In this document: positions 2,507 through 21,052 of the stretch, in pieces
Numbering within the stretch: the first letter of the stretch is position 1
How the letters are laid out: each line of letters begins with the position of its first letter
Source: a virus
Strand: one strand, 5' to 3'
IMG/VR virus record: IMGVR_UViG_3300048804_000058
Location: 1 to 33,880 of that record
DNA length: 33,880 bases
Made by a program: the position numbers and the translations under genes
The notes under the pieces: generated by a model
Database searches by the model: none
The model's input: the letters and a program-made list of their open reading frames with translations, nothing else
What the model was told of the DNA's origin: nothing

Positions 2507-4625
2507 CTAAAAATACCTCCATACCAATATAATCAGGTGATGACATAGTAGGTGTAACAGTACCACCAGCGGGAAGAAATACTACTCTCCACGTTCCTGT
2601 TAATGCACCATAAGAAATTAAATCCACAGTGAAATAGCTTGTTGAAGCAGCACTGAAATCTATTTGATCTGGAATAACCACTTTTCCACTATTATTTATA
2701 ATTATAACAACCCCATAAGCCACAGTAAGATTATGTGTAACTGTCAAAATTCCTGCGACTAAATCGGCATTGATAAAAGTAGTGTTATAGAATATACCTG
2801 CACCCACACCAAGATTTCCAGCAGCATCTGTAGTAATATACCTTACACCAGTACCAGAAAGTCCTGTCAATTTTAAATTAATAAATTGTGGTGATCCTGA
2901 TACACTAATATTCTGAGCTGCATCCAATGTTGAAGAAGAATAAGACAAGCTTGTTCCGATTGATACTATCCCCAACACACCTGCTGCGGCTTTTATAATA
3001 CCAGAAAGAGAACCAACTGTTAGACCGGCAAAGGTTGGACTATGTGTAGTTTCCAAAGAAAGATTTGCCCTAAGAGAGGTTGCACCAGTATAAGCAAGAC
3101 TTGCTAAATTTTTTGATCCGTCTGTGACAACTGCATTGGAAATAGTAAGTCCAGTAAGAAGAAGCCCCACATGGGTAACAGTTGACCCAGTAGTTAATCC
3201 TGATATATCAGCTTGAGCCAATGATAAACTTGATTTGAATGTGGCATAAGTAACACTTGCTAAATTCTTTGAAGCATCAGTAACTACAGGAAGAGAAGCA
3301 GTTAACCCTGATAGATTCAGCCCTGCAATAGAAAGTGAAAGTGTGACTGGAAAATCTGCATTTACCAATGCTCTGAAGGATGGCGCAGAAACCGCACCCG
3401 TTGTAGGTCCGGCAAATATTCTATTTGCTGTTTGGTTATCCAATCCAAGTGCTTGAGTAGATAATGACAAAAGGTTATTCTCTGCATCATTTGATAAAGT
3501 GATTGCGGGGTGCTTCAAAGAAACAGCACTTGAAATATCAGTATCAGTGTTTGTTCCTGAAACAAGATTTCTATTGGCATCACTCATTACTACTTTTGAG
3601 GTTGATAGACCTGAAAATGTGCCTGATGCTGAAATTGTTATACTGCTAAAAGAAGGGGAATCGCCTGATTGATATCGTGTATTGATAGCATTTTCTAATT
3701 CATCTATTTTACCTGCTGTCAACACTAATGCAAAATAATCACCGGCAATCCATGACTTGGCAATAGTTCCTTCTTGTGCTCGAACAATATTGAACGTATC
3801 GTCAGTATTCAATGTTGCGGTAACAATTTCTCTATTGATATCAGACAATGGAGTTGATGATGCTTGGCCCCACAAGACACACCTAAACGATCCCGTTGCG
3901 GGGAAAAGTGAACCCTTCCCCGATGCTACTGTTAATTCTAAATCACCAGAACCGATCCCGCTCACAGCAAGTGTGGTTGAAGCATAATTTTTATTTTTCA
4001 AAAAGGATGAAACACCACCACCCGATGCAGATTTATAAGCCGATGCCATGTTCCACCAACTGATACTGGAACTAGTCCAGTCTGCACTATCGGCCCCAGC
4101 AACAGCAAGAATTCGATCTTGTGTCGCCAAGTATGTCCAGCCACTATTGGTAGTTTCAGTTTGTTTGGTATAATCTTCATCGGCGGTAATTGAAGTATTT
4201 GATTTGTCAACAATCGCGCAGAAAATAAGTTCATTGGCTTCTGCTGCGGTGATACTTACAGTTGCACTTGTTCCAACACCGTTATTGATATTGAATGTGT
4301 CAAAATCACCAACACCAGAATATTCGTGAACGGCTATAGTTATATAATCTGCACTATTTGGTGTGACTGTGATCGTGAAAGCACCAGAAGCCGTGGTCAC
4401 ATCACAATCAAATAGATGTGCATAATTCGCCCCACCTGAAGACCGCTCGTTGTAAGTGTTGGGAGGGCTTTGATTGTCTGTTATGATAATAGTTTTGGAA
4501 TACCAAAAACTCACAGCAACAATCAATTTGTGGCCGACAATAGGGGTAACATCCAAGGTTATATCAAGAGAAGCACCGCTATCTGGATTACCAAGTATTT
4601 TTGACTGAACAAGTGAGATAGACAT
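2499..4625 (-). CDS. Large tail-fibre protein with repeats
   Basis: 708 aa. Residues 1 to about 200 look like a beta-sandwich module (HKLIVAVSFWYS, FTITVTPNSADYITIAVHEYSG). A phage-fibre module follows around 225-300, with the phrasing NREIVTATLNTDDTFNIVRAQEG and a GDYFALVLTAGK ending. The rest holds diverged repeats of GLT/SKNLAS/YATF type (STSKVVMSDANRNL, PVVTDASKNLASV, AVVTDGSKNLASL). The last ~110 residues are duplicated in the partial gene at 1-572. Probably a receptor-binding or connecting fibre. An AAAAATC...GATTTTT hairpin lies just upstream. Confidence 0.85.
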   Translation of the reverse strand: MSISLVQSKILGNPDSGASLDITLDVTPIVGHKLIVAVSFWYSKTIIITDNQSPPNTYNERSSGGANYAHLFDCDVTTASGAFTITVTPNSADYITIAVHEYSGVGDFDTFNINNGVGTSATVSITAAEANELIFCAIVDKSNTSITADEDYTKQTETTNSGWTYLATQDRILAVAGADSADWTSSSISWWNMASAYKSASGGGVSSFLKNKNYASTTLAVSGIGSGDLELTVASGKGSLFPATGSFRCVLWGQASSTPLSDINREIVTATLNTDDTFNIVRAQEGTIAKSWIAGDYFALVLTAGKIDELENAINTRYQSGDSPSFSSITISASGTFSGLSTSKVVMSDANRNLVSGTNTDTDISSAVSLKHPAITLSNDAENNLLSLSTQALGLDNQTANRIFAGPTTGAVSAPSFRALVNADFPVTLSLSIAGLNLSGLTASLPVVTDASKNLASVTYATFKSSLSLAQADISGLTTGSTVTHVGLLLTGLTISNAVVTDGSKNLASLAYTGATSLRANLSLETTHSPTFAGLTVGSLSGIIKAAAGVLGIVSIGTSLSYSSSTLDAAQNISVSGSPQFINLKLTGLSGTGVRYITTDAAGNLGVGAGIFYNTTFINADLVAGILTVTHNLTVAYGVVIIINNSGKVVIPDQIDFSAASTSYFTVDLISYGALTGTWRVVFLPAGGTVTPTMSSPDYIGMEVFLDG

Positions 4626-4650
4626 TCCTAAAACTGACTCCTATTCCTAA

Positions 4651-4678
4651 AAATCGCATGATTTTTATTTTTCAAAAA
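4651..4678 (-). terminator. Weak hairpin between structural genes
   Basis: AAAAATC - ATGC - GATTTTT on the minus strand, 26 nt after the stop of 4705-5442 and before the fibre gene. The stem is 7 bp, A+T-rich, ending in a short T run. It may be an attenuator or RNA-processing hairpin rather than a full terminator, since the operon appears to continue. Confidence 0.35.
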
Positions 4679-4704
4679 AACGATCATCAATCAATTTCTG
4701 ATAA

Positions 4705-5442
4705 TTAAGTAGACTGTCCTGTAATTCTCATAGTGATTGAGTTTTTTGCGGCAGCATCGGTTAATGCTAATGTCAAACACAACCATACACCCTGTGAATC
4801 GCCGGGAGTAAGATTTCCAGAACTGGCAACCGCTTTTGCATTATTATCAAAGGCTAACCCATCAGGAGCAGTAATTCTATTTGTTGATGTATCGGTATCA
4901 TTCAATGTTGCAGCCAATGCAAATGTAATTTTACCTAATACATCTGTCTGTTTTATAATCTGTGCAGAAGTCAATGCCAATGTACCGTTTATATTTTTTG
5001 TAAAATATTTTTCATAATAACTTTTTGAACCGACAGTAGGAGTTGATGCATTATAAAAAGGTCTTCGCACTGTTGTGATTCCAGGCTCCATTGTCATAAT
5101 AAGAGAGCTATCACTTGTCTTGAAAATAGTTACTATTCCCGTTGCTGGTGATGCTAAAACCGATTTCATAATTCTTTCAACAGTATTACTACCAACAACT
5201 GGTGTTCCACCAGATAAAGTTAATATTTCTGACTGAATTACACCAGCATTATTTCTACTGGTAACAGTCAAGTCCATTGTATCACCGCCATCTGATGAAC
5301 TTACAGATATTGTACCAGAAGATGCTATATCCGTAAAATCTATTTTAGTGGTCAAATCAATCGCACCACCTTGTGATCCTGTGTCAACTTCTCGCATATT
5401 TGCAGAACCATAATCTAATAATTCACTTGTAAGAACGCTCAT
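4705..5442 (-). CDS. Virion structural protein of unknown family
   Basis: 245 aa, starting MSVLTSELLDYGSANMREV, with a GGAGG ribosome binding site 9 nt upstream. Thr/Ser/Asp/Asn-rich and beta-rich, without transmembrane segments or enzyme motifs. It lies between the large fibre gene and the small protein 5460-5762 on the same strand. Placement in the fibre block suggests a fibre-attachment, baseplate or decoration protein; nothing narrower can be supported. Confidence 0.65.
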   Translation of the reverse strand: MSVLTSELLDYGSANMREVDTGSQGGAIDLTTKIDFTDIASSGTISVSSSDGGDTMDLTVTSRNNAGVIQSEILTLSGGTPVVGSNTVERIMKSVLASPATGIVTIFKTSDSSLIMTMEPGITTVRRPFYNASTPTVGSKSYYEKYFTKNINGTLALTSAQIIKQTDVLGKITFALAATLNDTDTSTNRITAPDGLAFDNNAKAVASSGNLTPGDSQGVWLCLTLALTDAAAKNSITMRITGQST

Positions 5443-5459
5443 GTCTTAATCCTCCATTC

Positions 5460-5762
5460 CTATATTTCCTCAACTGTGAGTTGAGTTTTATGATAATATA
5501 TATAAGGCACAGTATTGCTGGCCTTTGAAAGTTTCCATACAATTTCATACGTTCCTGATGTAATAGTCACATCAGTAGTTATCACAAGTGTTGCTGTATT
5601 TGAACTAACCTCTGCAACATCCTCGGCTTGAACGATGGTCCCATTACTATCATTAACCCATGCACTTGCAGATGTAGGAACCCATATATTATCATTCTGA
5701 TCTCGAATAGATATTGTCACTGGTCTTATTTCATTTTGATAGAACGTATCGTAGGACTTCAA
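5460..5762 (-). CDS. Small Ig-like virion protein
   Basis: 100 aa. The composition and strand pattern (RPVTISIRDQNDNIWVP, ATLVITTDVTITSGTYEIVWKL, YIYYHKTQLTVEE) suggest a single beta-sandwich domain, like the N-terminal modules of phage baseplate or tail proteins. It starts 1 nt after the stop of the HNH gene, which appears to be inserted between this gene and 6369-6965. No enzymatic motif. Exact family unknown. Confidence 0.65.
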   Translation of the reverse strand: MKSYDTFYQNEIRPVTISIRDQNDNIWVPTSASAWVNDSNGTIVQAEDVAEVSSNTATLVITTDVTITSGTYEIVWKLSKASNTVPYIYYHKTQLTVEEI

Positions 5763-5763
5763 T

Positions 5764-6360
5764 CTATTGTTCTCCTATAATGATTTTTTTTTTCCAATTA
5801 TCTTCCGCCCATAGTGGTTGAAGATTTGTATAATGAAAACATTTTTTCTGTTCATCTATTCTTGATAAATCAAACTTACAACAAGGAATAATATGATCAA
5901 TATGCCATTTACCATAGTTTTCCCAAGTCATTCCGAGTTGAAATTTCGTTTCTAACCATTGCTTCAAAAAATCCACAGAACACCCCAACAATTCTAATGT
6001 ATGACCAGACTTCCAGTTTTGTTTCAATGCTCTATATATTCTGCTTCTATAATATTCTCGTATCTTGAAATTCAAATCAATACTCTTTCTTCGTCTACTA
6101 TTATAGATATGGAGATTATTGATTTGTTTTTTATGTTTTTCATAATACTTTTTATTCCACTCGGAATGTTCTTTTTTATGATTTTGATAATATTTTCTTG
6201 AACTTTCAATAAAAGATGTATTATCCTTTTGTCTTTTTTCTCTTATCCCTTTGAGACAACATTCTATACATATTTTTTGCAAAGAATATTTCTTATTGCT
6301 CGTCTTATAAAAATATTCTTCTGTATAAGGGTTATCAATTTCACATCTTTTACAAATCAT
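5764..6360 (-). CDS. HNH endonuclease (probable free-standing homing endonuclease)
   Basis: 198 aa. An N-terminal zinc-binding pair (CKRC, then CIECC) is followed by a Lys/Tyr/Arg-rich helical linker. The C-terminal HNH core reads GMTWENYGKWHIDHIIPC, then FDL, EQKKCFHYTNLQPLWAEDN, with the H-x-D-H-x-x-P and N...P...N positions intact. Free-standing enzymes of this phage type nick or cut DNA to spread their own genes. It sits in a structural operon, and a TATAAATA late-promoter box lies only 5 nt before the ATG with no ribosome binding site, suggesting independent, possibly leaderless, late expression. Identification of the nuclease is firm; the homing role is inferred. Confidence 0.9.
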   Translation of the reverse strand: MICKRCEIDNPYTEEYFYKTSNKKYSLQKICIECCLKGIREKRQKDNTSFIESSRKYYQNHKKEHSEWNKKYYEKHKKQINNLHIYNSRRRKSIDLNFKIREYYRSRIYRALKQNWKSGHTLELLGCSVDFLKQWLETKFQLGMTWENYGKWHIDHIIPCCKFDLSRIDEQKKCFHYTNLQPLWAEDNWKKKIIIGEQ

Positions 6361-6365
6361 ATTAT

Positions 6366-6373
6366 TATTTATA
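6366..6373 (-). promoter_or_regulatory. TATAAATA late-promoter box before HNH gene
   Basis: An exact TATAAATA on the minus strand, 5 nt upstream of the HNH start codon. If used as a T4-like late promoter, transcription would begin at or near the start codon. It could also be chance in A+T-rich DNA. Confidence 0.45.
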
Positions 6374-6965
6374 TTTTTCCCTCGAATGCAACTTCTTTAG
6401 CAATACCAAAAAGTCTACCCAAAAATTTAGTTCCAAGATCGGGTATTCTGCCACCATAATCTTCACTAAGAGCAATGCTCAATGCTTTCATCTTTGTTTT
6501 GCTTTTCTCTCCCTTCCAATTCGCAATCATTTCCAATATGGCCTGTTTAGAAAAATCTTTATACATTGTTCCGACAACCACTTCTCCGATCATTTCTAAA
6601 GGAATTTCTCTAATCTCAAAAAGGTCACTTCGTGATAGTAAATATTTTCTTACTGCTGCTGCCATAAAAGGAAATTGTTCTACTATTCCTTTATAAGTAA
6701 GTGGAATATTGCCCTTCGTCCTTATCAGAGTATTGACCCATTGTTTGACAAATTGCCTTCTATTGTTACGATTTATATATGACAGATTTATAGCAAGCAA
6801 ATAGTTATGTATATGACCAGTTTTTGGATGCTGGCCTTTCACACCATATAACATGAAAATGAGAGGCTCGGGGTCGTTTTGAAATTTCTTATATTTGAAT
6901 TTATATATATGACCACTCTTGAATTTGAAAGAACCTTCTTGTGGCCCCATTCGTCTTGTTATCAT
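6369..6965 (-). CDS. Conserved phage late protein, function unclear
   Basis: 198 aa, basic. Residues ~13-75 contain GHIYKFKYKKF, a Pro-rich turn, then LLAINLSYINRNNRRQF. This pattern recalls phage proteins annotated as DNA-end protector-like (short FKY strand, then INLxYL and an R-rich helix), but the match is from memory and weak. The C-terminal half is helical (FSKQAILEMIANWKG). It lies directly downstream of the ferritin-like and head-completion genes, consistent with a head or tail-completion role. No catalytic motif seen. Confidence 0.6.
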   Translation of the reverse strand: MITRRMGPQEGSFKFKSGHIYKFKYKKFQNDPEPLIFMLYGVKGQHPKTGHIHNYLLAINLSYINRNNRRQFVKQWVNTLIRTKGNIPLTYKGIVEQFPFMAAAVRKYLLSRSDLFEIREIPLEMIGEVVVGTMYKDFSKQAILEMIANWKGEKSKTKMKALSIALSEDYGGRIPDLGTKFLGRLFGIAKEVAFEGKI

Positions 6966-6970
6966 AAATT

Positions 6971-7297
6971 TTATCCTAATTTTTCTTCTACTTCATCCTT
7001 GCCTTTTTTCAGTTCTTCTTCGTATTCTTTGTCTATTTCCACCAAGGCGGCTTGAAATTCTCCCACATGGGTCTTTTCTTCTTTTGCCACATCTAAAAGC
7101 AATAACTTTATTTTTTCATTTCCCGTTGCTTTCGCCATTTGCTCATAGAGGTTAATGGCATCTAATTCAGCAAGAATGGATATTCTCATCATTTCCTTAT
7201 CAGAATTGCTATCAAGTGGAATCTTAGAAAGAAGTTCTGAAAGCATCCTGCCCTTTTTACCAGCCAAATATTTTTCCGATATATTCTCAATATTCAT
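6971..7297 (-). CDS. Encapsulin-type ferritin-like protein
   Basis: 108 aa with an AAGGAG ribosome binding site. Residues 41-85 (AELDAINLYEQMA ... LLDVAKEEKTHVGEF) closely resemble, from memory, the ferritin-like domain fused to the shell protein of Pyrococcus encapsulin. E44, E52 and the E74-x-x-H77 pair are the likely di-iron ligands of this rubrerythrin/ferritin superfamily. In encapsulins such domains oxidise or store iron in an HK97-fold shell, the same fold as phage capsids. The N-terminus (ISEKYLAGKK) resembles the head-targeting tags of neighbouring proteins but lacks the E at the cleavage position. It lies between the gp4-like and 6369 genes, inside the head-gene block. Iron handling in the virion is an inference. 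Confidence 0.8.
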   Translation of the reverse strand: MNIENISEKYLAGKKGRMLSELLSKIPLDSNSDKEMMRISILAELDAINLYEQMAKATGNEKIKLLLLDVAKEEKTHVGEFQAALVEIDKEYEEELKKGKDEVEEKLG

Positions 7298-7298: not shown

Positions 7299-7757
7299 TT
7301 AGAATAACTCCTTCTCTGTAATTATCTTGAAAATCAAGCCACGTTTCCTACAAAAATCATTGGCCGCATGCCATTTAGCAGTATTGCGAGCATACATCTG
7401 GCTTTCATACATAACCGATTTGAGTGCTTTATTCGGTGATGGTTTTGGAGGATATACTTCTCTATATGGTTTTATTTCCACCACATAGTAAATTTCATGC
7501 CCATCATTGTTCTTTACCACCATTGTAAAATCAGGATAATATCTTTTCCATTTCTTTGTTACAGGATCAATATATGGTATTTCCAAACCCTCAGAGTTCC
7601 ATTTAATGACATTGGGATTATTATCAACCCACTTCATAAATGAGCGTTCCCATTCACTTCTACAAATAGGAAAATCTTTTCCCGTATACTTACTCAAAAA
7701 TTTTGGCTTATACACCTTATGCTTTTCAGCATCAAACACATGGCTCATGAAACTCAT
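7299..7757 (-). CDS. Head-completion nuclease, T4 gp4-like
   Basis: 152 aa, close to the length of T4 gp4. The pattern RSEWERSFMKWVDNNPNVIKW, IPYIDPVTKKWKRYYPDF, then VVEIKPYRE is characteristic of T4-like head-completion proteins. It reads as a PD-(D/E)XK nuclease-type core with E35, P75-D76 and E94-x-K96. In T4 this protein is needed to finish DNA-filled heads before tails attach. The gene is tightly packed, overlapping 7754-8161 by 4 nt and ending 1 nt before the ferritin-like gene. The assignment rests on motif recognition. Confidence 0.8.
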   Translation of the reverse strand: MSFMSHVFDAEKHKVYKPKFLSKYTGKDFPICRSEWERSFMKWVDNNPNVIKWNSEGLEIPYIDPVTKKWKRYYPDFTMVVKNNDGHEIYYVVEIKPYREVYPPKPSPNKALKSVMYESQMYARNTAKWHAANDFCRKRGLIFKIITEKELF

Positions 7758-8169: not shown

Positions 8170-8355
8170 TCAATGATAATAACCAATTTTCTTATTCTGT
8201 TTATCAAAGTCTATAATATATTGGTCAACATCCTTTGAATTACAATGTGGGCAAACAATCCCGGGCTCCATTCTTTTGACTTGAAACTTTTTTCCACAAC
8301 TATTACATTCCATGTCCGTATCTTCAGTAAGATACTTGAAGATTATTTTATCCAT
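8170..8355 (-). CDS. Zinc-ribbon protein with tag-like N-terminus
   Basis: 61 aa. Residues 1-12 read MDKIIFKYLTED, containing KYL-T-E, which fits the L-x-E cleavage pattern of T4-type prohead protease and resembles the MRLxxY[LIM]xE tags of the plus-strand genes. A C-x2-C (CNSC) and a second C-x2-C (CPHC) 19 residues apart form a classic zinc ribbon. It is 1 of 3 adjacent zinc-ribbon genes (with 8356 and 8544) and abuts the next stop. Possibly a small packaged or scaffold protein; the zinc site is evident, the role inferred. Confidence 0.75.
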   Translation of the reverse strand: MDKIIFKYLTEDTDMECNSCGKKFQVKRMEPGIVCPHCNSKDVDQYIIDFDKQNKKIGYYH

Positions 8356-8547
8356 TTATTTTGGCTCGGTATCATAAGAACCACACTTCGGGCATTTTAC
8401 TTCATATGTTCCCTTACTGATTTTCTTCTTGAACTCTCTGCCACATTCCATACATTTCATTTCGGTAACATCGGATTCTTTTGCCTTCCATGCTTTGTGT
8501 GCGGATAAATCTTCACCCAAATATTTATCTACTATTCTATCTATCAT
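8356..8547 (-). CDS. Zinc-ribbon protein with tag-like N-terminus
   Basis: 63 aa. It starts MIDRIVDKYLGED, with KYL-G-E in the same place as KYL-T-E of the neighbour at 8170-8355, so the two are tandem paralogues. The zinc ribbon is CMEC ... CPKC. The start overlaps the end of 8544-8909 by 4 nt. The conserved N-terminal motif next to a cleavable L-x-E suggests processing in the prohead; no experimental support is available here. Confidence 0.75.
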   Translation of the reverse strand: MIDRIVDKYLGEDLSAHKAWKAKESDVTEMKCMECGREFKKKISKGTYEVKCPKCGSYDTEPK

Positions 8548-10079: not shown

Positions 10080-10673
10080 ATGTTAATTAATGTTTTAGTA
10101 TTAATATCAACTGTATTTGGATTCATGTCACTATACTATGGATTTAGAAACTGGGTCTTAATCAAAAGCAATAAATTATGGAATGCATCATGGGCTGCTT
10201 TTATTTCAACTGCCACTCTCATAGGTATTAGAAGGCTTTATTCGTTTCAATACGAACATGAACATATGTTAATTGAATATCTTTTGGTATTAGCAATATC
10301 CATTGGAGCATTCACATTTGCTTTAACAAAAAATAAATTCTTTGAAAAATATCTACGAGATATTAGAGAAGAAAAGGCAGATAAAAATTTCAGAAGAAAA
10401 GAAGAACTCATAAAAACAAAAGAAGAAGGCCGAGAAGAAGCAAATATAGAAAGAGAAAAAGGAAGAGAAACAGAAATACAAGCGCAAGAAAAAGATAGAG
10501 AAGATAAAAAAGAAAGAATTACAATGAGAAGAAGTAAGAGAGAACAAGAAAGCACAGATAGAGGAATAGCGAGAGAAGAAGAAAGCATTACAAGAGAAAA
10601 AGAAAGAATGCAAGAAAGAGAAGAAAGATTGACAGAAAGAAAAAGAAACATAAAAGATAAAAACGATCTATGA
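10080..10673 (+). CDS. Membrane protein with long charged single helix
   Basis: 197 aa. The start at 10080 is preceded by AGAGGTG, 8 nt upstream; a longer open frame from 9969 overlaps the previous gene and lacks such a site. Three hydrophobic segments (about residues 2-18, 36-51, 62-80) are followed by ~110 residues made almost only of Glu, Lys and Arg, e.g. REKGRETEIQAQEKDRED. This ER/K pattern is typical of a rigid single alpha-helix. It could act as a membrane-anchored spacer or scaffold; no family recognised. The stop overlaps the next start (ATGA). Confidence 0.7.
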   Translation: MLINVLVLISTVFGFMSLYYGFRNWVLIKSNKLWNASWAAFISTATLIGIRRLYSFQYEHEHMLIEYLLVLAISIGAFTFALTKNKFFEKYLRDIREEKADKNFRRKEELIKTKEEGREEANIEREKGRETEIQAQEKDREDKKERITMRRSKREQESTDRGIAREEESITREKERMQEREERLTERKRNIKDKNDL

Positions 10674-10906
10674 GACTAAAAAAATATTTATCAGAACAAG
10701 ACGGTGTATCTTCGAACCCCAGCAATCAAACATCTGGTGGCTTTGCGAATTATGGTATGGGGGCAGTTGCATATAAGCCAAAGGATCAAATCGACAGAAA
10801 GAAAAAGAAGAAAAAGAAAGAACCGAAAGAAGTTAAAAAGCCATTAACATTTCGACCAATAGCAGATACATCAGGAGAAACAACTGATAGCATGAGGCAA
10901 TACTAA
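10670..10906 (+). CDS. Tagged small basic protein (MRLKKYLSEQ)
   Basis: 78 aa. It begins MRLKKYLSEQD, the first of five consecutive plus-strand genes with the tag MRLxxY[LIM]xE. L-S-E fits the T4 prohead protease cleavage pattern, and the tag resembles the T4 internal-protein targeting peptide (MKTYQEFIAE). Behind it are a Gly/Asn/Ser stretch and a poly-Lys run (RKKKKKKKEPKEVKK), as expected for a DNA-binding or internal head protein. Start coupled to the upstream stop by ATGA, with no separate ribosome binding site. Confidence 0.75.
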   Translation: MRLKKYLSEQDGVSSNPSNQTSGGFANYGMGAVAYKPKDQIDRKKKKKKKEPKEVKKPLTFRPIADTSGETTDSMRQY

Positions 10907-11433
10907 TGAGGCTTGAAAAATACATGCAAGAGCAAATGGCGGGTGGTGGTGGAATGACTTCTGGTGGAATAGCTGGAGGAGCAAAAGGTGGAGAAATTGG
11001 AAGTGGTGCCACAACAACAAGCAAGATAGCCAAATTTTATCCTTACTACATTTATAATAAGAAGAAGAAGAAAAAAAAATTATTGAGTAGGAGAAAGGAA
11101 GAAATGACCATGACCAAGGAAGAGAAACTACTTTGGGAGCAGGGGCATCAAGTTGCTAAAACCATTCTTACACAAATTCATTCTTTAGATAAGTGGGCAT
11201 TGGGAGCATGGGGAGCACAAGATTTTGTATCAACAAACAATCCATCAAGTCTTCAGTTTAGAGTGAATGGAGCAAAATTCAAAGGAAAGGTTGTTATTCA
11301 TCTAAACGGAAAGGATTTATATGATATAGATTTTGGTGTGGGAAAAGATTTAAAATGGGTTTCAAAACACAAAGAACATGATATCTATGCTGAAGATTTA
11401 GTCAAAATACTTGATGACTATATTGAGAAATAA
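10906..11433 (+). CDS. Tagged protein: Gly-rich linker, poly-Lys, conserved phage domain
   Basis: 175 aa beginning MRLEKYMQEQ (tag; M-Q-E at the cleavage position). Residues 13-40 are Gly-rich, residues 52-58 are seven Lys, and from about residue 68 (MTKEEKLLWEQGHQVAKTIL ... WALGAWGAQDF ... LQFRVNGAKFKGKVVIHLNGKDLYDI) there is a compact domain that I recognise as a common stand-alone phage protein of unknown function. A tag and linker therefore seem to have been fused to it. An internal start at 11104 or 11110 (ATGACCATGACC after AGAAAGGAAG) could also make the domain alone. The stop TAA shares its A with the next ATG region. Confidence 0.75.
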   Translation: MRLEKYMQEQMAGGGGMTSGGIAGGAKGGEIGSGATTTSKIAKFYPYYIYNKKKKKKKLLSRRKEEMTMTKEEKLLWEQGHQVAKTILTQIHSLDKWALGAWGAQDFVSTNNPSSLQFRVNGAKFKGKVVIHLNGKDLYDIDFGVGKDLKWVSKHKEHDIYAEDLVKILDDYIEK

Positions 11434-12813
11434 ATGAGACTTAAATATTATATAACCGAAGCAGATGAAAAAATTAAAGTCGTAATTCTCACAACAAAGA
11501 ATGATGAAAAAAAAGAAGATTCTGGTGGGGATAAACTCTTTGACACATCAAAGAAAATCAAAGAGTATTGTGAAAAGAAAAAAATAAGTCATTATGTATT
11601 ATACGCCGAGAATGCATTCATCAATCGAAATAAAGATGATATGACCGTCCATAATTCCGATGACAAACAAGGATTTAAAATACACAAAAACAATACAGCA
11701 GTTGTTGTTCGAGGAACTTTTGATACACTATCAACTGGCCTTGACCTTCTTTCCAGAATGGAAAATGCTGGTATATTCTGTGTAAATGGAAGAGAAGCAA
11801 TAGAAATATGCTCCGATAAATATCGAACAATTCTCGCCATGGAAGACAATGAGATAAAATGCCCCAAGACAGCAACGGTAGTGAATAAAGATGGGCTTGG
11901 GGGCGCATTTAAACGAATTGGTGGAAAATTCCCATGTATCTTAAAAACCATAACAGGATCAAAGGGTATTGGAGTGTTTTTTGCGGATTCGTGGATTGGC
12001 ATGAATTCTACTCTTCAGGCAATGTGGAAAGTAGATGAAGAAGTACAGATATTGATGCAGGAATACATTGAAGCAGATTTTGATATGAGAATCCATGTTC
12101 TGGGTGGTGAAGTCATAGGAGCAATGAAAAGATTCAAAATAAAAAATGATTTCAGATCAAATTATTCTCTTGGTGGCAAAATTGAAGAGATGAAAGTAAA
12201 TGACAAATTGAGAGAATTTGCTATCAATGCAGCGAAGGCAATAGGGGGAATATGGGTCGGTGTAGATGTAATGGATGCAGGAAAAGAGGATTATCGCGTT
12301 ATCGAAGTCAACTCTTCACCAGGGACAGAAGGAATAGAAAAAGCCACCCATAAAAATATAGTTGGAACAGTAGTAAAGTTCATAACCGATAAGAACAATT
12401 GGGCTGATATAAAAAAGACAGAATGTGGTTTCGTTGAAAAAATAAAAATAGAAAAAACAGATAAAGAATTTGATGCCAAAATGGATACGGGCAATAGTTC
12501 TTACTCTGTCATTCATGCCAACAAATGGAAAATAAATGGCGATAATATAAGATGGGAAATGTATGGAAAGAAATATACCGATGAATTAGACTCCATGAAA
12601 GAAGTAGAAGCAGGAGCGACAGAACATAAGAGAGAAGAAAGACCCGTCATAAAGTTGAATGTAATTTTCAACGGGGAAACATACAAAAACGTTAGATTCT
12701 GTCTATCAGATCGAGAAGATTTTTCAACTCCTGTATTGATGAATCGCCAATTTATTAGACGGGCTGGATTAATAGTCAACCCATCATTGAAATATGCTCT
12801 ATCGGAAAAATAA
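11434..12813 (+). CDS. Tagged RimK-like ATP-grasp ligase fused to RimB-like protease domain
   Basis: 459 aa. Tag MRLKYYITEA (I-T-E). Residues ~15-320 form a RimK-type ATP-grasp glutamate ligase: CPKTATVV, the ATP-binding lysine in FPCILKTITGSKGIGV, the LMQEYIEAD strand, DMRIHVLGGEVIGAMKR, and the metal-binding end VIEVNSSPG. RimK adds glutamates to the C-terminus of ribosomal protein S6. Residues ~335-459 match the retropepsin-like RimB / RimK-associated zinc-protease family, with AKMDTG at 349-353 and LSDRED plus VLMNRQF near the end. A ligase and its partner hydrolase in one chain, with a head-targeting tag, suggest an injected ribosome-modifying enzyme; that target is inferred. Confidence 0.85.
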   Translation: MRLKYYITEADEKIKVVILTTKNDEKKEDSGGDKLFDTSKKIKEYCEKKKISHYVLYAENAFINRNKDDMTVHNSDDKQGFKIHKNNTAVVVRGTFDTLSTGLDLLSRMENAGIFCVNGREAIEICSDKYRTILAMEDNEIKCPKTATVVNKDGLGGAFKRIGGKFPCILKTITGSKGIGVFFADSWIGMNSTLQAMWKVDEEVQILMQEYIEADFDMRIHVLGGEVIGAMKRFKIKNDFRSNYSLGGKIEEMKVNDKLREFAINAAKAIGGIWVGVDVMDAGKEDYRVIEVNSSPGTEGIEKATHKNIVGTVVKFITDKNNWADIKKTECGFVEKIKIEKTDKEFDAKMDTGNSSYSVIHANKWKINGDNIRWEMYGKKYTDELDSMKEVEAGATEHKREERPVIKLNVIFNGETYKNVRFCLSDREDFSTPVLMNRQFIRRAGLIVNPSLKYALSEK

Positions 12814-13118
12814 TGAGACTACAAGAATATCTTACAGAAAAAGAAGAAAGGAAAGTTGTTGTTTATAACATAAAGAATGTAGATCAGCTTCACCAAAGAA
12901 TGAAAGAAATGAGCGTGGGAAATGAGTATGCATGGATTGCCCACACAGTCTTTGGTATGACAACTCTGACCGCATATAAACGCCCAAGTCTTATACCATA
13001 TATTGCGATAGGCGATTCTCCCATAGCATTCAAAGGATTTTATCAGAATGGAGAGTTCAAGGATTTTCCTACTGCTCAAAAAATCAAATACCAGAATAGT
13101 AATATGGGATCAGAATGA
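12813..13118 (+). CDS. Tagged hypothetical protein (MRLQEYLTEK)
   Basis: 101 aa. Tag MRLQEYLTEK (L-T-E). The remainder is an alpha/beta domain (KVVVYNIKNVDQLHQRMKEM, YAWIAHTVFGMTTL, PYIAIGDSPIAFKGFY) with no family I recognise. Start coupled to the upstream stop (TAATGAG) and overlapping the Nudix start by 4 nt. Probably co-packaged with the other tagged proteins if the tag works as proposed. Confidence 0.7.
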   Translation: MRLQEYLTEKEERKVVVYNIKNVDQLHQRMKEMSVGNEYAWIAHTVFGMTTLTAYKRPSLIPYIAIGDSPIAFKGFYQNGEFKDFPTAQKIKYQNSNMGSE

Positions 13119-13570
13119 GACTCAATAAATATATAACAGAAGAAAAAAAACTCAGTGTAGGTCTTATTCTTACAGATGGAGAAGTATTTCTCGCCGTTAG
13201 ACCTACAAATGGATTTCTCTATGATATGCCAAAAGGAATGGGCAATCCAGGAGAAAACCCTGTTGAAACTATTGTAAGGGAGTTCAAAGAAGAAACAAAC
13301 ATTGACATATCGAGATATAAATCACAACTAACCCCAATGGGAAAACATTATTATACAAACTATAAAGACGTTGACGTTTTTGTCCTGAAACTTGAAAATC
13401 TTCCTTCAATATCTTCAATGAAATGCACTTCAATGTTTCATATAAGACCCGATGAACTCGCGCCAGAAGTTGATCAATTCCATTATATCAATTGGAACAA
13501 TTTGAAAATGTTCAATTCTGGTATGAAAAACATTCTGGAAAAAGTAAGAGAAAAAATAAAAAACCCATAA
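13115..13570 (+). CDS. Tagged Nudix hydrolase
   Basis: 151 aa. Tag MRLNKYITEE (I-T-E). The Nudix box runs from G41 to I63 and fits G-x5-E-x7-REUxEExGU, with N replacing the last G (REFKEETNI), so the metal-binding glutamates are present. Nudix enzymes hydrolyse nucleoside diphosphates linked to another group, such as NAD, ADP-ribose or RNA caps; the substrate cannot be read from sequence. Last gene of the plus operon, ending at a hairpin shared with the convergent minus operon. T4 also encodes a Nudix enzyme, but tagging one for the head would be unusual. Confidence 0.85.
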   Translation: MRLNKYITEEKKLSVGLILTDGEVFLAVRPTNGFLYDMPKGMGNPGENPVETIVREFKEETNIDISRYKSQLTPMGKHYYTNYKDVDVFVLKLENLPSISSMKCTSMFHIRPDELAPEVDQFHYINWNNLKMFNSGMKNILEKVREKIKNP

Positions 13571-15034: not shown

Positions 15035-15706
15035 TTAATGCTGAACAAAAAGAACATCAGACCTTGTTTGGCAAGCGGTGCATGTTTCCCCACAAACCAC
15101 CTTATTTCCTGGTTTGCATGGACAAACAAAGGCACCTGTTTCTCCTGCACGAATGTTTATTTCTTGTTCTGGGCCAAAGTTAACTTTACCACCAACAAAA
15201 GAACTTACGACATTGAAATTAGGAAGAGATTTAATCTTTCCAAAATCCCATATATGTTCTGTTTTAGTATATGTATAGAATCTTACATCAGGTCTTTCTT
15301 TTGCAATTTCAAACCACATATCAAGATATGCTTGAGAGAACATATCACCTGATTCATGAATTCTGACAATATCTCCTGATTCTAACTTCGATAATATTTG
15401 TTTTTTCAAAAGTTCGGGGGCTTCTTTAGCAAGTCTAAAATTTCGGCCTCGTGCTGCCCTGACAGCAGGATATTGTCTTTCTGCTTTTCTAGCATAGCAG
15501 AATTTAGCACATTGGGAAGAATTTGGGCAACTCTGTATAGCGGGAAGATTGAATATTTTTATCTTCTTGGATAATTTCAAATTTCCTTTAGACATAAAAA
15601 CCCAAAGGTCTTCAAGAGGAATTTGTTCTACAGGAACATTTTTATACTTCACTGCCATTTCTTTTTCTCTTTTGTCCACTTCTACCAAAAAATTTTCATA
15701 TCGCAT
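15035..15706 (-). CDS. GP88-like protein with head-tag-like N-terminus
   Basis: 223 aa. It starts MRYENFLVEVDK; NFL-V-E matches the L-x-E cleavage pattern and resembles the tags of the plus operon. The body (SKGNLKLSKKIKIFNLPA, SCPNSSQCAKFCYARKAE, VRAARGRNF) matches the phage GP88 family, named after a mycobacteriophage gene product. The Cys clusters C-x5-C-x3-CYA and a later CPCKPG...C...CTAC suggest bound metal or an Fe-S cluster. A TATAAATA late box lies 28 nt upstream. Biochemical function of the family is not known to me. Confidence 0.75.
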   Translation of the reverse strand: MRYENFLVEVDKREKEMAVKYKNVPVEQIPLEDLWVFMSKGNLKLSKKIKIFNLPAIQSCPNSSQCAKFCYARKAERQYPAVRAARGRNFRLAKEAPELLKKQILSKLESGDIVRIHESGDMFSQAYLDMWFEIAKERPDVRFYTYTKTEHIWDFGKIKSLPNFNVVSSFVGGKVNFGPEQEINIRAGETGAFVCPCKPGNKVVCGETCTACQTRSDVLFVQH

Positions 15707-16605: not shown

Positions 16606-16682
16606 TGGTGAGGTCGGGGGGAATCGAACCCCCATGTGCGCAGGGTAAGAGCCTGTTACAAGCCAATATTTGTTACGACCTC
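16606..16682 (-). tRNA. tRNA-Lys(CTT)
   Basis: Acceptor GAGGTCG/CGACCTC, discriminator A, encoded CCA. Anticodon loop CTCTTAC gives CTT. T arm GGGGG-TTCGATT-CCCCC. Top pair of the anticodon stem is A-C. The CCA is followed at once by AAGGA for the next gene. Confidence 0.9.
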
Positions 16683-16683
16683 A

Positions 16684-16944
16684 TTATATTTCAAACAAAT
16701 CTTTTGGTAATTTAAACTTTATGATCGAGCCTAATTTCACAGAAAGAAAAAAACAATATTCATTATTCGAAACCAGATTTCCACTACATGTTACATAATC
16801 TTTATTGGAAGAAAATATCTTTTGGTATCGTGTAGAAGATGTTAAATGAAACTCTCTCCCAATATATTCTTTTCGTTTATCATAAAAACCATCGGAGAAC
16901 TCTATATCTTCTATAATTACTGTATCACCATGTTCGAATTTCAT
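16684..16944 (-). CDS. Small beta-rich protein, SH3-like
   Basis: 86 aa, starting MKFEHGDTVIIEDIEF and ending FKLPKDLFEI. The start (K-x-GD-x-V-x-I) and the ending resemble the small protein at 25305-25496 and the last residues of 18063-18527 (FFPKDLFKIE), suggesting a family of small barrel proteins spread through the tRNA block. The stop is 1 nt from the 5-prime end of tRNA-Lys. Function unknown. Confidence 0.6.
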   Translation of the reverse strand: MKFEHGDTVIIEDIEFSDGFYDKRKEYIGREFHLTSSTRYQKIFSSNKDYVTCSGNLVSNNEYCFFLSVKLGSIIKFKLPKDLFEI

Positions 16945-16945
16945 T

Positions 16946-17170
16946 CTACTTCCTATTCAGATAAGCATTTATATTTTTCAATTCTGTTATTGCTTTTCTT
17001 GCTTCATACATTGAATTTATATATTCACTCTCTTTGCGATATTTGATATATTGAAATAATTTCTTCAATGTAAAAATAAAAAAACATATACCGATAATAA
17101 GATATATAATCCCCATTGTTTTTACAATTATGGGATTGGGATTAGTCAATTGTGGAATATTCGCTATCAT
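16946..17170 (-). CDS. Small membrane protein
   Basis: 74 aa with one clear transmembrane helix (IIVKTMGIIYLIIGICFFIF, about residues 14-33) followed by a charged helix. It lies between tRNA-Val(TAC) and 16684-16944, 9 nt after the encoded CCA; no strong ribosome binding site. No family recognised. Confidence 0.6.
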   Translation of the reverse strand: MIANIPQLTNPNPIIVKTMGIIYLIIGICFFIFTLKKLFQYIKYRKESEYINSMYEARKAITELKNINAYLNRK

Positions 17171-17178
17171 AAAATTTT

Positions 17179-17255
17179 TGGTACGGGATGGTGGATTTGA
17201 ACCACCTACCTTTCGGGTGTAGGCCGAATGTTCTTCCCAAGTGAACTAATCCCGC
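17179..17255 (-). tRNA. tRNA-Val(TAC), C33
   Basis: Acceptor GCGGGAT/ATCCCGT (G-T first pair), discriminator A, CCA encoded. Stem TTCGG/CCGAA with loop CCTACAC: anticodon TAC and C instead of the near-universal T at position 33. T arm GGTGG-TTCAAAT-CCACC. Confidence 0.85.
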
Positions 17256-17261
17256 ATTATT

Positions 17262-17783
17262 TTAATACAACCATTTTTCGTTTCTAAAATCACCATATTC
17301 TTGAACGGCACCATAAATATTTTGAACTATGTCTGTTCGATGAACCATTATTTTACAAGTGCCATAAAGCAATTTTCCTTTTTTCTTTTTCGAAGAAAAT
17401 TTAGAATACTTATTTATAATTGATTTTCTTAAACAACTTTTCGGCAAACACAAAGCATTACACCAATATGCTTCAATATCAGATATTGACATTCCGTTAT
17501 TATCATAAGCATTTATTTCTAATTTTATTTCTTCTATCCGAACATTATAACATTCCATCAAAAACTTCAGAAAAAATTTCAACATATTAACATCTGAATT
17601 TGTAAGTATGACGGAATTTTTCTTTTTAGAACCCTCACCCCAAAACAACATACATCCAGAAATATGTAACCAATTCAATTCCTTTGCTTTTTGTTTTCCC
17701 TTATTTTGGCACTCTTCTCTTAATTTTCTAAATTTATCTTGAGCGAATGTATTACCAAAATGTATTAAATTTTTGTTTACCAA
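17262..17783 (-). CDS. Possible LAGLIDADG-like / WGEGSK-domain protein
   Basis: 173 aa with a TTG start (17781-17783) after a GAG-rich stretch, overlapping the previous stop by 7 nt. The core LHISGCMLFWGEGSKKKNSV, then TNSDVNMLKFFLKFL, matches a widespread uncharacterised family whose (A/G)xxxWGEGS motif recalls degenerate LAGLIDADG helices. A homing-type endonuclease inserted in the tRNA block is possible but unproven. A TATAAATAAGTA sequence occurs inside the gene near 17409-17420 and may be chance. Confidence 0.6.
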   Translation of the reverse strand: MVNKNLIHFGNTFAQDKFRKLREECQNKGKQKAKELNWLHISGCMLFWGEGSKKKNSVILTNSDVNMLKFFLKFLMECYNVRIEEIKLEINAYDNNGMSISDIEAYWCNALCLPKSCLRKSIINKYSKFSSKKKKGKLLYGTCKIMVHRTDIVQNIYGAVQEYGDFRNEKWLY

Positions 17784-17968
17784 CTCTTTTTACTCCAAGA
17801 AATATTTCGTTCTGTCTTTCCTAACTTTCGGCCTTTTCGTAAACCCTTGGCCTCTGCTTCTTTCAGACAATACTGGCAGGGGTCAAGAAAATAAACACCA
17901 TTATCCACACCCGTTGCTGTTTTTGGTTTTCCCAAATCCCCGCTACATTTTGAACAAAAATAATTCAT
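17777..17968 (-). CDS. Zinc-binding C4 protein
   Basis: 63 aa from MNYFCSKCSG; AAGGA 7 nt upstream decides this start, since the longer frame reads back through tRNA-Val(GAC). The pattern YFCSKCSGDL ... GVYFLDPCQYCLKEAEAKG matches each of two repeats in the protein at 24156-24626 (YYCDKCNADL ... IAIKPCHACLEEANNAG). It is thus a single-copy version of that zinc finger. The basic C-terminus suggests nucleic-acid contact. Function unknown. Confidence 0.7.
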   Translation of the reverse strand: MNYFCSKCSGDLGKPKTATGVDNGVYFLDPCQYCLKEAEAKGLRKGRKLGKTERNISWSKKSW

Positions 17969-17985
17969 TTTACTTTCCTTTCTTT

Positions 17986-18061
17986 TGGTGCGGAATGTTG
18001 GTTTCGATCCAACTACCTTTGCCGTGTCAGGACAACGCTCTCCCAATTGAGCTAATCCCGC
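17986..18061 (-). tRNA. tRNA-Val(GAC)
   Basis: Acceptor GCGGGAT/ATTCCGC, discriminator A, CCA encoded. Stem TTGTC/GGCAA, loop CTGACAC, anticodon GAC. Complements tRNA-Val(TAC). Confidence 0.9.
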
Positions 18062-18062
18062 A

Positions 18063-18527
18063 TTATTCTATTTTGAACAAATCCTTTGGAAAAAAAGCAG
18101 GACGAATTACTGTAAACCCTCGCGCTATCAGTTTATCATATTGTTCATCGGTCACTTCATGGTCAATATAACCATACTCATCAATATTTTCCATCATTAT
18201 TTTTGCTTCATAAAGACCATTATTAAAAACTTCTCGTAAATCCTTTACGGCAGCAATTCTCAATTCAATTTTTTTTGAAATTCTGCTTTTGGCTGAAGGC
18301 AAATAAAATGAATTATCCTCTTCATCTATAATTTTGAACCCAACATAAATTAAATCATTTTTTTGAATATCGGTCAATTCAGAAACAAAATAACCATTGT
18401 CTCTTATGCTTTCTGCCATTTCTTTTGCTTCTTTCAAACCAACAAAAAGAATAGAACGAATTTCCTTTATGATTGTAATAAATCTTTGGGAAACATAATC
18501 ATGGTCTTTTGAGATTTTATAGTTCAT
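18063..18527 (-). CDS. Tandem ribosomal L7/L12 C-terminal-domain-like protein
   Basis: 154 aa made of two repeats: about residues 15-67 (RFITIIKEIRSILFVGLKEAKEMAES, then TDIQKNDLIYVGFKII) and 88-141 (LRIAAVKDLREVFNNGLYEAKIMMEN, then TDEQYDKLIARGFTVI). Each matches the bL12 C-terminal domain pattern (K-I-x-V-I-K-x-x-R-x..G-L-x-EAK, then a G-x-x-V/I end). In ribosomes this domain recruits EF-Tu, EF-G, IF2 and RF3. There is no N-terminal dimerisation domain to bind L10, so it would not simply replace host L12. It has its own consensus promoter. A role in binding translation factors is inferred. Confidence 0.75.
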   Translation of the reverse strand: MNYKISKDHDYVSQRFITIIKEIRSILFVGLKEAKEMAESIRDNGYFVSELTDIQKNDLIYVGFKIIDEEDNSFYLPSAKSRISKKIELRIAAVKDLREVFNNGLYEAKIMMENIDEYGYIDHEVTDEQYDKLIARGFTVIRPAFFPKDLFKIE

Positions 18528-18533
18528 ATTATA

Positions 18534-18562
18534 ATTATATCAGAGTTTTCAATATATGTCAA
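18534..18562 (-). promoter_or_regulatory. Consensus sigma70 promoter for L12-like gene
   Basis: Perfect TTGACA (18557-18562), 17-bp spacer, perfect TATAAT (18534-18539); the -10 lies 7 nt before the ATG at 18527, giving a near-leaderless transcript. Confidence 0.85.
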
Positions 18563-18594
18563 GAAAAAAGTTTTACATATATATCAATAAGTTA

Positions 18595-18684
18595 TGGCGG
18601 AGAGAATGGGATTTGAACCCATGGGAGCATGGTGACTCCACCTGCTTTCCAGACAGGCACCTTAAACCACTCGGCCATCTCTCC
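18595..18684 (-). tRNA. tRNA-Ser(GGA)
   Basis: Acceptor GGAGAGA/TCTCTCC, discriminator G, CCA encoded. Loop CTGGAAA, anticodon GGA, with the long variable arm typical of serine tRNAs. The stop of 18662-18901 lies inside its D loop. Confidence 0.9.
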
Positions 18685-18901
18685 GAATTTGGTCAATAAC
18701 TTTCACTTCATCTATCCAACACGCATCAGAGTATATTGATTTATGAGAACCATTATGCTCTATAATGTATTGATGATTATCGAGTAATTTTTTGGCATCA
18801 TACGTAAAGGCAACTACATGATCTGGATAATCAGAAAATCTAGCAATGTATGTATTGTTTTCTCTGGTCGATAATATATCTATTTTTATTTTATCCATCA
18901 T
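18662..18901 (-). CDS. Small hypothetical protein ending inside tRNA-Ser
   Basis: 79 aa, starting MMDKIKIDILSTREN. The last eight codons and the TAA lie within the tRNA-Ser(GGA) gene (23-nt overlap), so the same RNA must serve as message or tRNA. The start is 8 nt after the CCA of tRNA-Ser(GCT), with a weak AAAAGA site. No family recognised. Confidence 0.6.
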   Translation of the reverse strand: MMDKIKIDILSTRENNTYIARFSDYPDHVVAFTYDAKKLLDNHQYIIEHNGSHKSIYSDACWIDEVKVIDQIRRDGRVV

Positions 18902-18908
18902 AATCTTT

Positions 18909-18996
18909 TGGAGGAAGGGACAGGATTCGAACCTGCGGGGCTTTTACACCCAAAAGTTTAGCAAACTTTCATCATAAACCACTCGATCACCCTTCC
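18909..18996 (-). tRNA. tRNA-Ser(GCT)
   Basis: Acceptor GGAAGGG/CCCTTCC, discriminator T, CCA encoded. Stem AAAGT/ACTTT, loop TTGCTAA, anticodon GCT, long variable arm. Discriminator T is unusual for serine, where G is usual. Confidence 0.9.
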
Positions 18997-19002
18997 GAAT
19001 TT

Positions 19003-19079
19003 TGGAGGCGGCAGAGAGACTCGAACCCCCGCATTTTCTGTTTTGCAGACAGACGCATTACCATCTTTGCTATGCCGCC
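19003..19079 (-). tRNA. tRNA-Cys(GCA)
   Basis: Acceptor GGCGGCA/TGCCGCC, discriminator T, CCA encoded. Stem TCTGT/ACAGA, loop CTGCAAA, anticodon GCA. Overlaps the stop of 19070-19369 by 10 nt. Confidence 0.9.
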
Positions 19080-19369
19080 TTAATCTTTTTCCATCCTTTC
19101 TTACCTATGACAAACCCAGTTTCTCGCAACCATTTTTCCCAATAGTTTTTCACAAAATCCCAATCTTCAACTTCAGAACTTGTGAAACCAAGAAATTCAT
19201 TTTTGGATTCATCCCAAGAAGCATCATGAACACCATATGTTTCTTCCAACCAAGTCATATCAGATTCAGAAACTATATCTAGGAAATCCTGAAAATCCAT
19301 CGAACAACTAACAAGAGGAAGACGATATGTTATTTCCTCGTTTTCATCGTGAAGCACAAAATACTTCAT
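19070..19369 (-). CDS. Hypothetical acidic protein
   Basis: 99 aa starting MKYFVLHDENEEITYRLP, Glu/Asp/Trp-rich (DFVKNYWEKWLRETGFV), with AAAGGAAA before the ATG. The final codons AAG-GCG-GCA-TAG run into the 5-prime end of tRNA-Cys. Overlaps the DUF4326 gene start region by 4 nt. No family recognised. Confidence 0.65.
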   Translation of the reverse strand: MKYFVLHDENEEITYRLPLVSCSMDFQDFLDIVSESDMTWLEETYGVHDASWDESKNEFLGFTSSEVEDWDFVKNYWEKWLRETGFVIGKKGWKKIKAA

Positions 19370-19635
19370 ACAATTTCCTTTCCTATATAATCCGCCAATA
19401 ATGCTAATATGTCACCATGGCATCCTTTGGGTTTACACCAGCACCCCAAAGTTTTATCTTTCAATTCATGTAAATCAGCAAGAAGTTTTTCATTCTTCAT
19501 TATCCATACTTGATATTTCTGTAATACCTTCTCCCTGTTGCCGTCTTTGCCTATAGCAAATGGATTGCCCCATTTACTGGGCCTTCCGATATATACATCA
19601 TATGCTTCTTTTTTACAATGAACTACTTTTGTCAT
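19366..19635 (-). CDS. DUF4326-family protein
   Basis: 89 aa from ATG at 19635 (MTKVVHCKKEAYD); a TTG at 19659 would add eight residues. The motifs VYIGRPSKWGNPF, a middle REKVLQKYQVWI helix and LGCWCKPKGCHGDIL are those of DUF4326, a family common in phages. The conserved Cys/His (C-W-C ... C-H-G-D) suggest metal binding. Function unknown. The start lies within the end of the zinc-ribbon gene 19613-19816. Confidence 0.85.
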   Translation of the reverse strand: MTKVVHCKKEAYDVYIGRPSKWGNPFAIGKDGNREKVLQKYQVWIMKNEKLLADLHELKDKTLGCWCKPKGCHGDILALLADYIGKEIV

Positions 19636-19816
19636 TTTTTCTCTTATTGTATATATCAATATTGCTTTCTAATACTTCACAATCGAGACTTTCATTTGGG
19701 TTGCACAAACTGCAAAGAACCGATGGATACCTTCTTATAATTCCTTTCCTACATATATGGCAGAGAATTAATTTATCTCTCTTCTTAAATAAATGTCGAT
19801 TATCAATTGCTTCCAT
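19613..19816 (-). CDS. Small zinc-ribbon protein
   Basis: 67 aa. C-x2-C (CHIC) and C-x2-C (CSLC) 16 residues apart form a zinc ribbon; the C-terminus is Lys/Ser/Asn-rich. The start is 7 nt downstream of the encoded CCA of tRNA-Gly(TCC), with AGG between as ribosome binding site. Function unknown. Confidence 0.65.
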   Translation of the reverse strand: MEAIDNRHLFKKRDKLILCHICRKGIIRRYPSVLCSLCNPNESLDCEVLESNIDIYNKRKNDKSSSL

Positions 19817-19823
19817 AATACCT

Positions 19824-19901
19824 TGGAGCGGGTGGAGGGACTCGAACCCTCACTAAAAGGGTGGAAGCCTTTCGTGCTGTTCCGTTAAACACTACACCCG
19901 C
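19824..19901 (-). tRNA. tRNA-Gly(TCC)
   Basis: Acceptor GCGGGTG/CACCCGC, discriminator T, CCA encoded. Stem AAAGG/CCTTT, loop CTTCCAC, anticodon TCC. Overlaps the C-terminal codons of 19885-20265. Confidence 0.9.
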
Positions 19902-20265
19902 TTATATCAAACATCTCATTAGGAAGTTCAATAAGCACCTTCAAATCATACGGTGATATATACCACTTGCCAACAAGATAATCCGCATACTTTACTATTT
20001 TTAACTGATGATAAATTTTTGTATAAGATTCATCAATCGTCCTGTATTCAATGTAATATACCGTTTTGGAAATCACCTTATATTTTTTATTCAATGGTAT
20101 ATATATATTTGCCTTTACTATTTGATCGTCATTAAATTCTACATATGGGCCGCGCTTACCAACAACAAGACGATCATAGCCTTTGCAAACAAGCATATCT
20201 GATTTTGTATGGAAAAGAAGGTCTTCATTCTTCTTTATGTATTTCAAATAATTAACAAGTTCCAT
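19885..20265 (-). CDS. Conserved phage hypothetical protein
   Basis: 126 aa. The phrases MLVCKGYDRLVVGKRGPYVEF and QLKIVKYADYLVGKWYISPYDLK belong to a family I have seen in phages and bacteria without known function. Beta-rich. Its last codons extend 17 nt into tRNA-Gly(TCC). It directly follows 20266-20637 (the ATG abuts that stop). Role unknown. Confidence 0.65.
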   Translation of the reverse strand: MELVNYLKYIKKNEDLLFHTKSDMLVCKGYDRLVVGKRGPYVEFNDDQIVKANIYIPLNKKYKVISKTVYYIEYRTIDESYTKIYHQLKIVKYADYLVGKWYISPYDLKVLIELPNEMFDISGCSV

Positions 20266-20637
20266 TTACCACCATAAAGTCTGAAACCATTCTCCGAATA
20301 ATTTACATCCCCTTTGAACTCTCTTATGATTTACATCAGGGCCATACCATTTATCATCATCCGAAGAAATTTCCATAGCATAAATCATATCATCAAGAAT
20401 TTTATGCCATTTCTTTCTTCCAGCATCCCAATCTTCATTTGTAACAGAAGGAGAAAAACATCCAGGAACACCAGGAGAAATTTCTCTATATTTTTTCAAT
20501 CTTGGTAGAGTAAATTTGGCTACATACAAAAATAAACACCAAGTTTCGCGTTCATCAAATCCCCATTCTTTTCTTTGCTTCGCCCATTCAAAGCGGCGGT
20601 CATCGGAGTGACTTTTCTTACCTAATTTTCTGTTCAT
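20266..20637 (-). CDS. Conserved phage hypothetical protein
   Basis: 123 aa from MNRKLGKKSH; a GTG two codons earlier is also open. GGGTGA lies just upstream. It contains RRFEWAKQRKEWGFDERETWCL, then LPRLKKYRE and a WDAGRKKWHKILDDMIYAME helix, a pattern frequent in T4-like phages (GFDxRxTWxL ... LPRLKxF). Trp-rich. Function unknown. Confidence 0.7.
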   Translation of the reverse strand: MNRKLGKKSHSDDRRFEWAKQRKEWGFDERETWCLFLYVAKFTLPRLKKYREISPGVPGCFSPSVTNEDWDAGRKKWHKILDDMIYAMEISSDDDKWYGPDVNHKRVQRGCKLFGEWFQTLWW

Positions 20638-20779: not shown

Positions 20780-20790
20780 ATTCACCTTTT

Positions 20791-20868: not shown

Positions 20869-20872
20869 TATT

Positions 20873-20949: not shown

Positions 20950-20957
20950 ATAAATTT

Positions 20958-21045: not shown

Positions 21046-21052
21046 TTAATTC

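Follow-up and report, generated by a model that had tools for sequence, protein, structure and literature searches.

The minus-strand gene at 6971..7297 of the analysed window, a 33,880-nucleotide stretch of viral DNA, encodes a ferritin-like protein of the two-helix EncFtn family, and it is fairly probable from the features of its sequence and neighbourhood that the product is an active ferroxidase cargo packaged in the head of this phage. The gene is a real open reading frame of 108 amino acids (MNIENISEKYLAGKKGRMLSELLSKIPLDSNSDKEMMRISILAELDAINLYEQMAKATGNEKIKLLLLDVAKEEKTHVGEFQAALVEIDKEYEEELKKGKDEVEEKLG), started by ATG, with an AAGGAG Shine-Dalgarno sequence at good spacing before the first ATG and none before the internal Met18. 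Both motifs named in the first-pass annotation, ELDAINLYEQ and EEKTHVGEF, are found in it, and the location beside a head-completion gene, likewise pointed out there, is confirmed: directly upstream lies the gene of a T4 gp4-type head completion (head closure) protein (7299..7757, minus strand; phrog_218, 8.8e-46), and directly downstream that of a T4 gp2-type DNA end protector (6369..6965, minus strand; phrog_429, 9e-8). Since genes 4 and 2 are immediate neighbours in T4, the ferritin gene stands between them here. The window corresponds to the end of a viral contig of 155,948 bases (99.99% identity over 33,840 bases), and the source of the gene is a large T4-like virus of bacteria. Searches of this contig for capsid and prohead protease genes (PF03420, PF07068, phrog_207, phrog_138) returned no match, so the contig must be incomplete; a T4-type prohead protease was found on contigs of relatives (G018, G021). 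In addition, the window carries 34 tRNA genes on its minus strand (16606-31571), which cover nearly all amino acids and are interspersed with small genes.

Among sequences of solved structures in the PDB, the closest is the ferritin domain of Pyrococcus encapsulin (5n5e, 5.1e-21; 2e0z, 1.8e-19), with EncC and EncB next. The NCBIfam matches are EncB_fam (2.7e-18, with a score of 66 bits under the curated NCBI cut-off of 90 bits, so that the protein counts as related to this family without formally belonging to it), TIGR04535 (1e-11) and rubrerythrin (0.057), and those in Pfam are Rubrerythrin (7e-7) and EncFtn-like (3e-6). A profile comparison with encapsulin-associated ferritin families, which the first-pass annotation had proposed as a check, was performed with a profile of 28 homologues against the PDB and again placed EncFtn proteins in the lead (2e0z, 5.5e-35; 5n5e, 3.5e-34; EncC, 1.7e-16; EncB, 5e-11). 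Judged by these matches, the product is a two-helix EncFtn-family protein whose core fits EncFtn better than rubrerythrin, and the earlier assignment to an encapsulin-type ferritin holds (5e-21 for 5n5e vs. 0.057 for rubrerythrin). An ordinary rubrerythrin was discarded as a candidate, as the matches to it are weak only and a single EExxH half is present. The ferritin-like domain spans residues 22-107 (6977..7234, minus strand). Within it, E44, Y51, E74 and H77 align with Glu32, Tyr39, Glu62 and His65, which constitute the ferroxidase centre of Rhodospirillum rubrum EncFtn (PMC5012862), and all four residues are invariant across the 28 homologues, which suggests catalysis.

The first 21 residues (MNIENISEKYLAGKKGRMLSE; 7235..7297, minus strand) form an N-terminal extension that is considered a candidate capsid-targeting sequence on the basis of its profile rank and the starts of homologous proteins. 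This extension is absent from the cellular homologues, which share the start MLSKIP, and at the boundary of the phage protein LSE is followed immediately by LLSKIP. The L-S-E at residues 19-21 (7235..7243, minus strand) is thus placed as a candidate L/I-x-E cleavage site of the gp21 type. Internal head proteins of T4 carry N-terminal capsid-targeting sequences of 10-19 residues, in which residues 4 and 7 serve targeting and residues 8 and 10 processing, gp21 cuts after L/I-x-E, and foreign proteins fused to such a sequence are packaged and delivered (PMC9026906). Upstream of the core, [LIM]xE is present in 19/21 phage homologues (the two without an L/I-x-E site being L061 and L063) vs. 15/75 cellular ones, and in many phages it directly abuts the domain. 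The strict T4 pattern, M..[FYLIM]..[YF][LIVM].E, is short; it fits four phage homologues (MVNFKDYLTE, MGKFKNYLVE, MSKFKDYITE and MSKLLNYLTE), which come from related T4-like phages and are therefore not independent, compared with 0/106 cellular Met starts and 0.05% of internal windows. Run on 36 T4 genes, the same pattern recovers ipII and ipIII only. Additionally, with gene starts in the relatives picked by rule, the N-termini of phage ferritins are closer to those of genes on the same contig than to those of other contigs (permutation p<5e-5, 20 loci). The locus L003 exemplifies this with a spacing other than that of T4: its ferritin starts MNPRKAFEQALAK, and three neighbours start with near-identical peptides. 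Here, NPRxAFEQALxK opens four neighbouring genes (4346-6794) and recurs within some of the proteins, including the C-terminal part of the ferritin, as if it were a repeated tag.

Tags of this kind are not confined to the ferritin gene. Approximately 20-25 genes of the 156-kb contig start MRLxxYLxE or MIDKIIxKYLxE, corresponding to 6-8% of N-termini vs. 1-2% of internal windows, and 149 similar pairs are N-terminal vs. 40 internal. The shared tag is written in varied synonymous codons, which argues that it is kept as protein. The N-terminus of the window ferritin (MNIENISEKYLAGKK) ranks 10/321 against the profile of KYL-type tags (shuffle p 0.0095), and the nine sequences above it are all tagged. 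Its tag is degenerate, reading KYLAG instead of KYLxE with the glutamate missing; ISE-8 and LSE-21 are candidates for the site of cleavage. As KYLAG does not fit the strict tag expression, the assignment follows from the profile score; T4 IPI likewise has no glutamate at position 10. A tag of the capsid-targeting type on the window ferritin itself is probable from this comparison, with moderate support (p about 0.01). In the same operon, two zinc-ribbon proteins carry the tags MDKIIFKYLTED (8170..8355, minus strand) and MIDRIVDKYLGED (8356..8547, minus strand). Five consecutive genes on the plus strand (10670..13570), among them ATP-grasp and NUDIX genes, start MRLKKYLSE, MRLEKYMQE, MRLKYYITE, MRLQEYLTE and MRLNKYITE, and a GP88-family protein (15035..15706, minus strand) starts MRYENFLVE. 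These eight tag-bearing genes of the window are candidates for co-packaging, and over the whole contig the tag marks about 20-25 further candidate injected proteins in one phage, mostly of unknown function. Possible tags were also observed at other viral loci. An array of tagged genes in L046 (4544-12378, contig position 104.5-112.4 kb) includes C39-peptidase and zeta-toxin/kinase domains as well as a paralogous family (phrog_12810, 11975, 15932) with LYRG/LWRG motifs reminiscent of ADP-ribosyltransferases, and a CCA-adding tRNA nucleotidyltransferase in L044 (5288-6730; phrog_2244, 6.7e-85) starts MDFRRFYLFE.

The profile search yielded 32 viral loci, in which the domain occurs in several arrangements. 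T4-like relatives carry a separate, tagged ferritin gene beside terminase and neck genes. In non-T4 phages the domain is fused to head proteins: it is attached C-terminally to a portal protein (L071), lies in the middle of a single open reading frame between a portal protein and topoisomerase IB (L070, 5980-8637), and precedes a DUF2213/head-maturation-protease-like protein in one polypeptide (L004). In two further loci (L072 and L075) it is located within NUDIX-containing polyproteins near head genes, with a minor-head-like gene upstream in L075 as judged by inspection of the sequence. The portal and protease fusions form one supported group in the tree (95) and the two NUDIX fusions another (96). 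At further loci, it precedes the head protease by ~7 kb and the major head protein by ~9 kb (L089), adjoins the neck genes for the head-tail adaptor and head closure (L084), is next to a baseplate wedge gene (L087) or lies outside the head operon (L082). The only recognisable relative that the searches of 50,697 sequenced phage records gave is Eggerthella phage LE2-3 (LE23_74), in which a weakly matching protein of 948 residues is encoded four genes ahead of the major capsid protein. The records of T4-type isolates contained no EncFtn-like match, against 2,486 phage records with gp4, and a gp4-based search of viral contigs for further relatives returned the same phage only. That such varied arrangements share one destination is the strongest argument for the head as the place of this protein.

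The earlier suggestion that a phage could be packing an iron-oxidising cargo thus gains support at the sequence level from the tag-like N-termini, the L/I-x-E at the domain boundary and the portal and head-protease fusions elsewhere. From the family, ligands, extension, boundary motif, neighbourhood and recurrence described above, a course of targeting, cleavage, location, iron chemistry and benefit of a phage ferritin can be proposed. By homology, the two-helix ferroxidase would dimerise into di-iron centres and form open rings. The N-terminal extension would carry it into the core of the prohead, much as the capsid-targeting sequence of T4 acts on IPII, IPIII and Alt. Cleavage behind L-S-E-21 by the prohead protease would follow, and the protein that stays in the DNA-filled head would correspond to the cellular form. 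Because no prohead protease was found on the contig, an L/I-x-E specificity is assumed for this phage. EncFtn oxidises iron, but storage requires a shell (PMC5012862), and the phage head would serve as that shell. Inside it, the ferritin may oxidise and hold Fe2+, thereby shielding packaged DNA from Fenton damage, and/or it may be delivered into the cell together with the DNA and there affect the iron of the host or oxidative stress. A broader proposal, tentative but quite possible, is that several unrelated phage lineages independently turned their capsids into iron-handling compartments, either by providing a cellular EncFtn-type ferroxidase with a capsid-targeting tag, as in the T4-like phages, or, in others, through its fusion to a portal protein or head protease, so that the head would work like an encapsulin and not be derived from one.

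The alternative that survives best, although it appears unlikely, is an ordinary auxiliary gene. The product would be a late cytosolic ferritin-like protein for iron binding or protection from oxidative stress, with no role in the virion, and the likeness of N-termini would reflect a general leader of late genes. The nearest cellular homologues are indeed free-standing proteins of a cytosolic type, without encapsulin. At least 547 homologues are present in the genome collection; the 80 retrieved are for the most part proteins of archaea and bacteria, 90-100 residues long, that start MLSKIPID. The degenerate tag of the window protein also fits an auxiliary gene, as does the presence in other phages of Dps or Mn-catalase, which are discussed as stress genes (PMC8008677, PMC6669764). 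However, a cytosolic role leaves unexplained the portal and head-protease fusions, the head-gene locations in unrelated phages and the recurrence of L/I-x-E at the domain boundary.

It is improbable that the protein is a structural component of head, neck or tail in which the two-helix fold serves assembly and iron binding is incidental, or that it sits in the tail and aids entry via iron receptors (Ferrojan horse). Such a role would agree with the position between head-completion genes, with the neck genes and the baseplate wedge gene that adjoin the ferritin gene in L084 and L087, respectively, and with the portal fusions. In contrast, the ferroxidase ligands are invariant in 28 proteins, T4 completes the gp4-gp2 region without a ferritin gene, and the gene is rare among gp4-bearing phages, with none of the T4-type isolates having an EncFtn-like match vs. 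2,486 gp4 records.

The encapsulin shell gene (PF04454) was detected in 0/30 genomes that hold the closest cellular homologues, while three control genomes were positive, and a GSL-type C-terminal cargo-loading peptide was found in 0/32 phage and 0/81 cellular sequences; on both counts, loading as an encapsulin-type cargo was rejected. In the tree, the Pyrococcus domain clusters with archaeal free-standing proteins and not with the phage ones, with modest support in a weakly resolved topology whose 74-column core is too short for most forks or for counting origins. The evolutionary link between capsids and encapsulins that the first-pass annotation had offered as a further possibility is not borne out by these three results. 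That the phage protein is a leftover or close kin of an encapsulin system, and documents descent between the two kinds of shell, is very improbable. In favour of it, the top solved relative is the encapsulin-fused Pyrococcus domain; against it, the shell gene was not found in the 30 genomes, the loading peptide is absent and the Pyrococcus domain groups, if weakly, with archaeal free-standing proteins. The likeness to Pyrococcus is a likeness inside a wide half-ferritin family that includes encapsulin cargo as one of its branches, and an encapsulin link is unnecessary to account for the phage protein.

Encapsulins are thought to have descended from HK97-fold viruses and to have later acquired cargo such as ferritins. 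The packaged-cargo reading of the phage protein describes the reverse of this pairing, in which phages seem to load such a ferritin into their heads by their own targeting systems, and to have done so repeatedly. If it is correct, some virions carry an iron-oxidising enzyme, which bears on the protection of packaged DNA, on phage-borne iron in nature and on the material that is injected as infection begins. The literature searched, which left most subscription journals outside its scope, held no description of a phage EncFtn-type ferritin.

Several known systems can be compared with the window protein. Kuttervirus gp217, which was observed in virions, had been named a ferritin from its predicted fold (PMC10892097); as a precedent it was set aside, because its sequence (L174, 7948-8301) matches DUF5856 (1.3e-28) and shows neither an EExxH nor a match to ferritins. 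Dps and Mn-catalase are phage-encoded members of the ferritin superfamily, but they belong to other families than the window protein. Stand-alone EncFtn-like proteins (s-FLP), such as NE0167 (PDB 3k6c), and the free-standing homologues from archaea and bacteria consist of the same domain. In the cellular homologues collected here, a cargo-loading peptide is lacking, and the genomes examined gave no encapsulin. Unlike the phage protein, these stand-alone proteins carry no N-terminal extension and lie outside phage head gene clusters. The encapsulin ferritin of Pyrococcus furiosus (PFC_05175, 5n5e/2e0z) shares the two-helix EncFtn core, the EExxH and the ferroxidase ligands, but is fused to the encapsulin shell protein, whereas the phage protein is separate, N-terminally extended and without an encapsulin cargo-loading peptide. 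The internal head proteins of T4 differ in their cargo, which comprises basic proteins and an ADP-ribosyltransferase and no ferritin, and the tag of the window protein departs from theirs in being degenerate and having its site at residue 21. With IPI, IPII, IPIII and Alt, the phage ferritins nevertheless have in common a short N-terminal tag that recurs on unrelated proteins within one genome and an L/I-x-E at or past the end of this tag, which in some of the phage homologues follows the exact spacing of T4.
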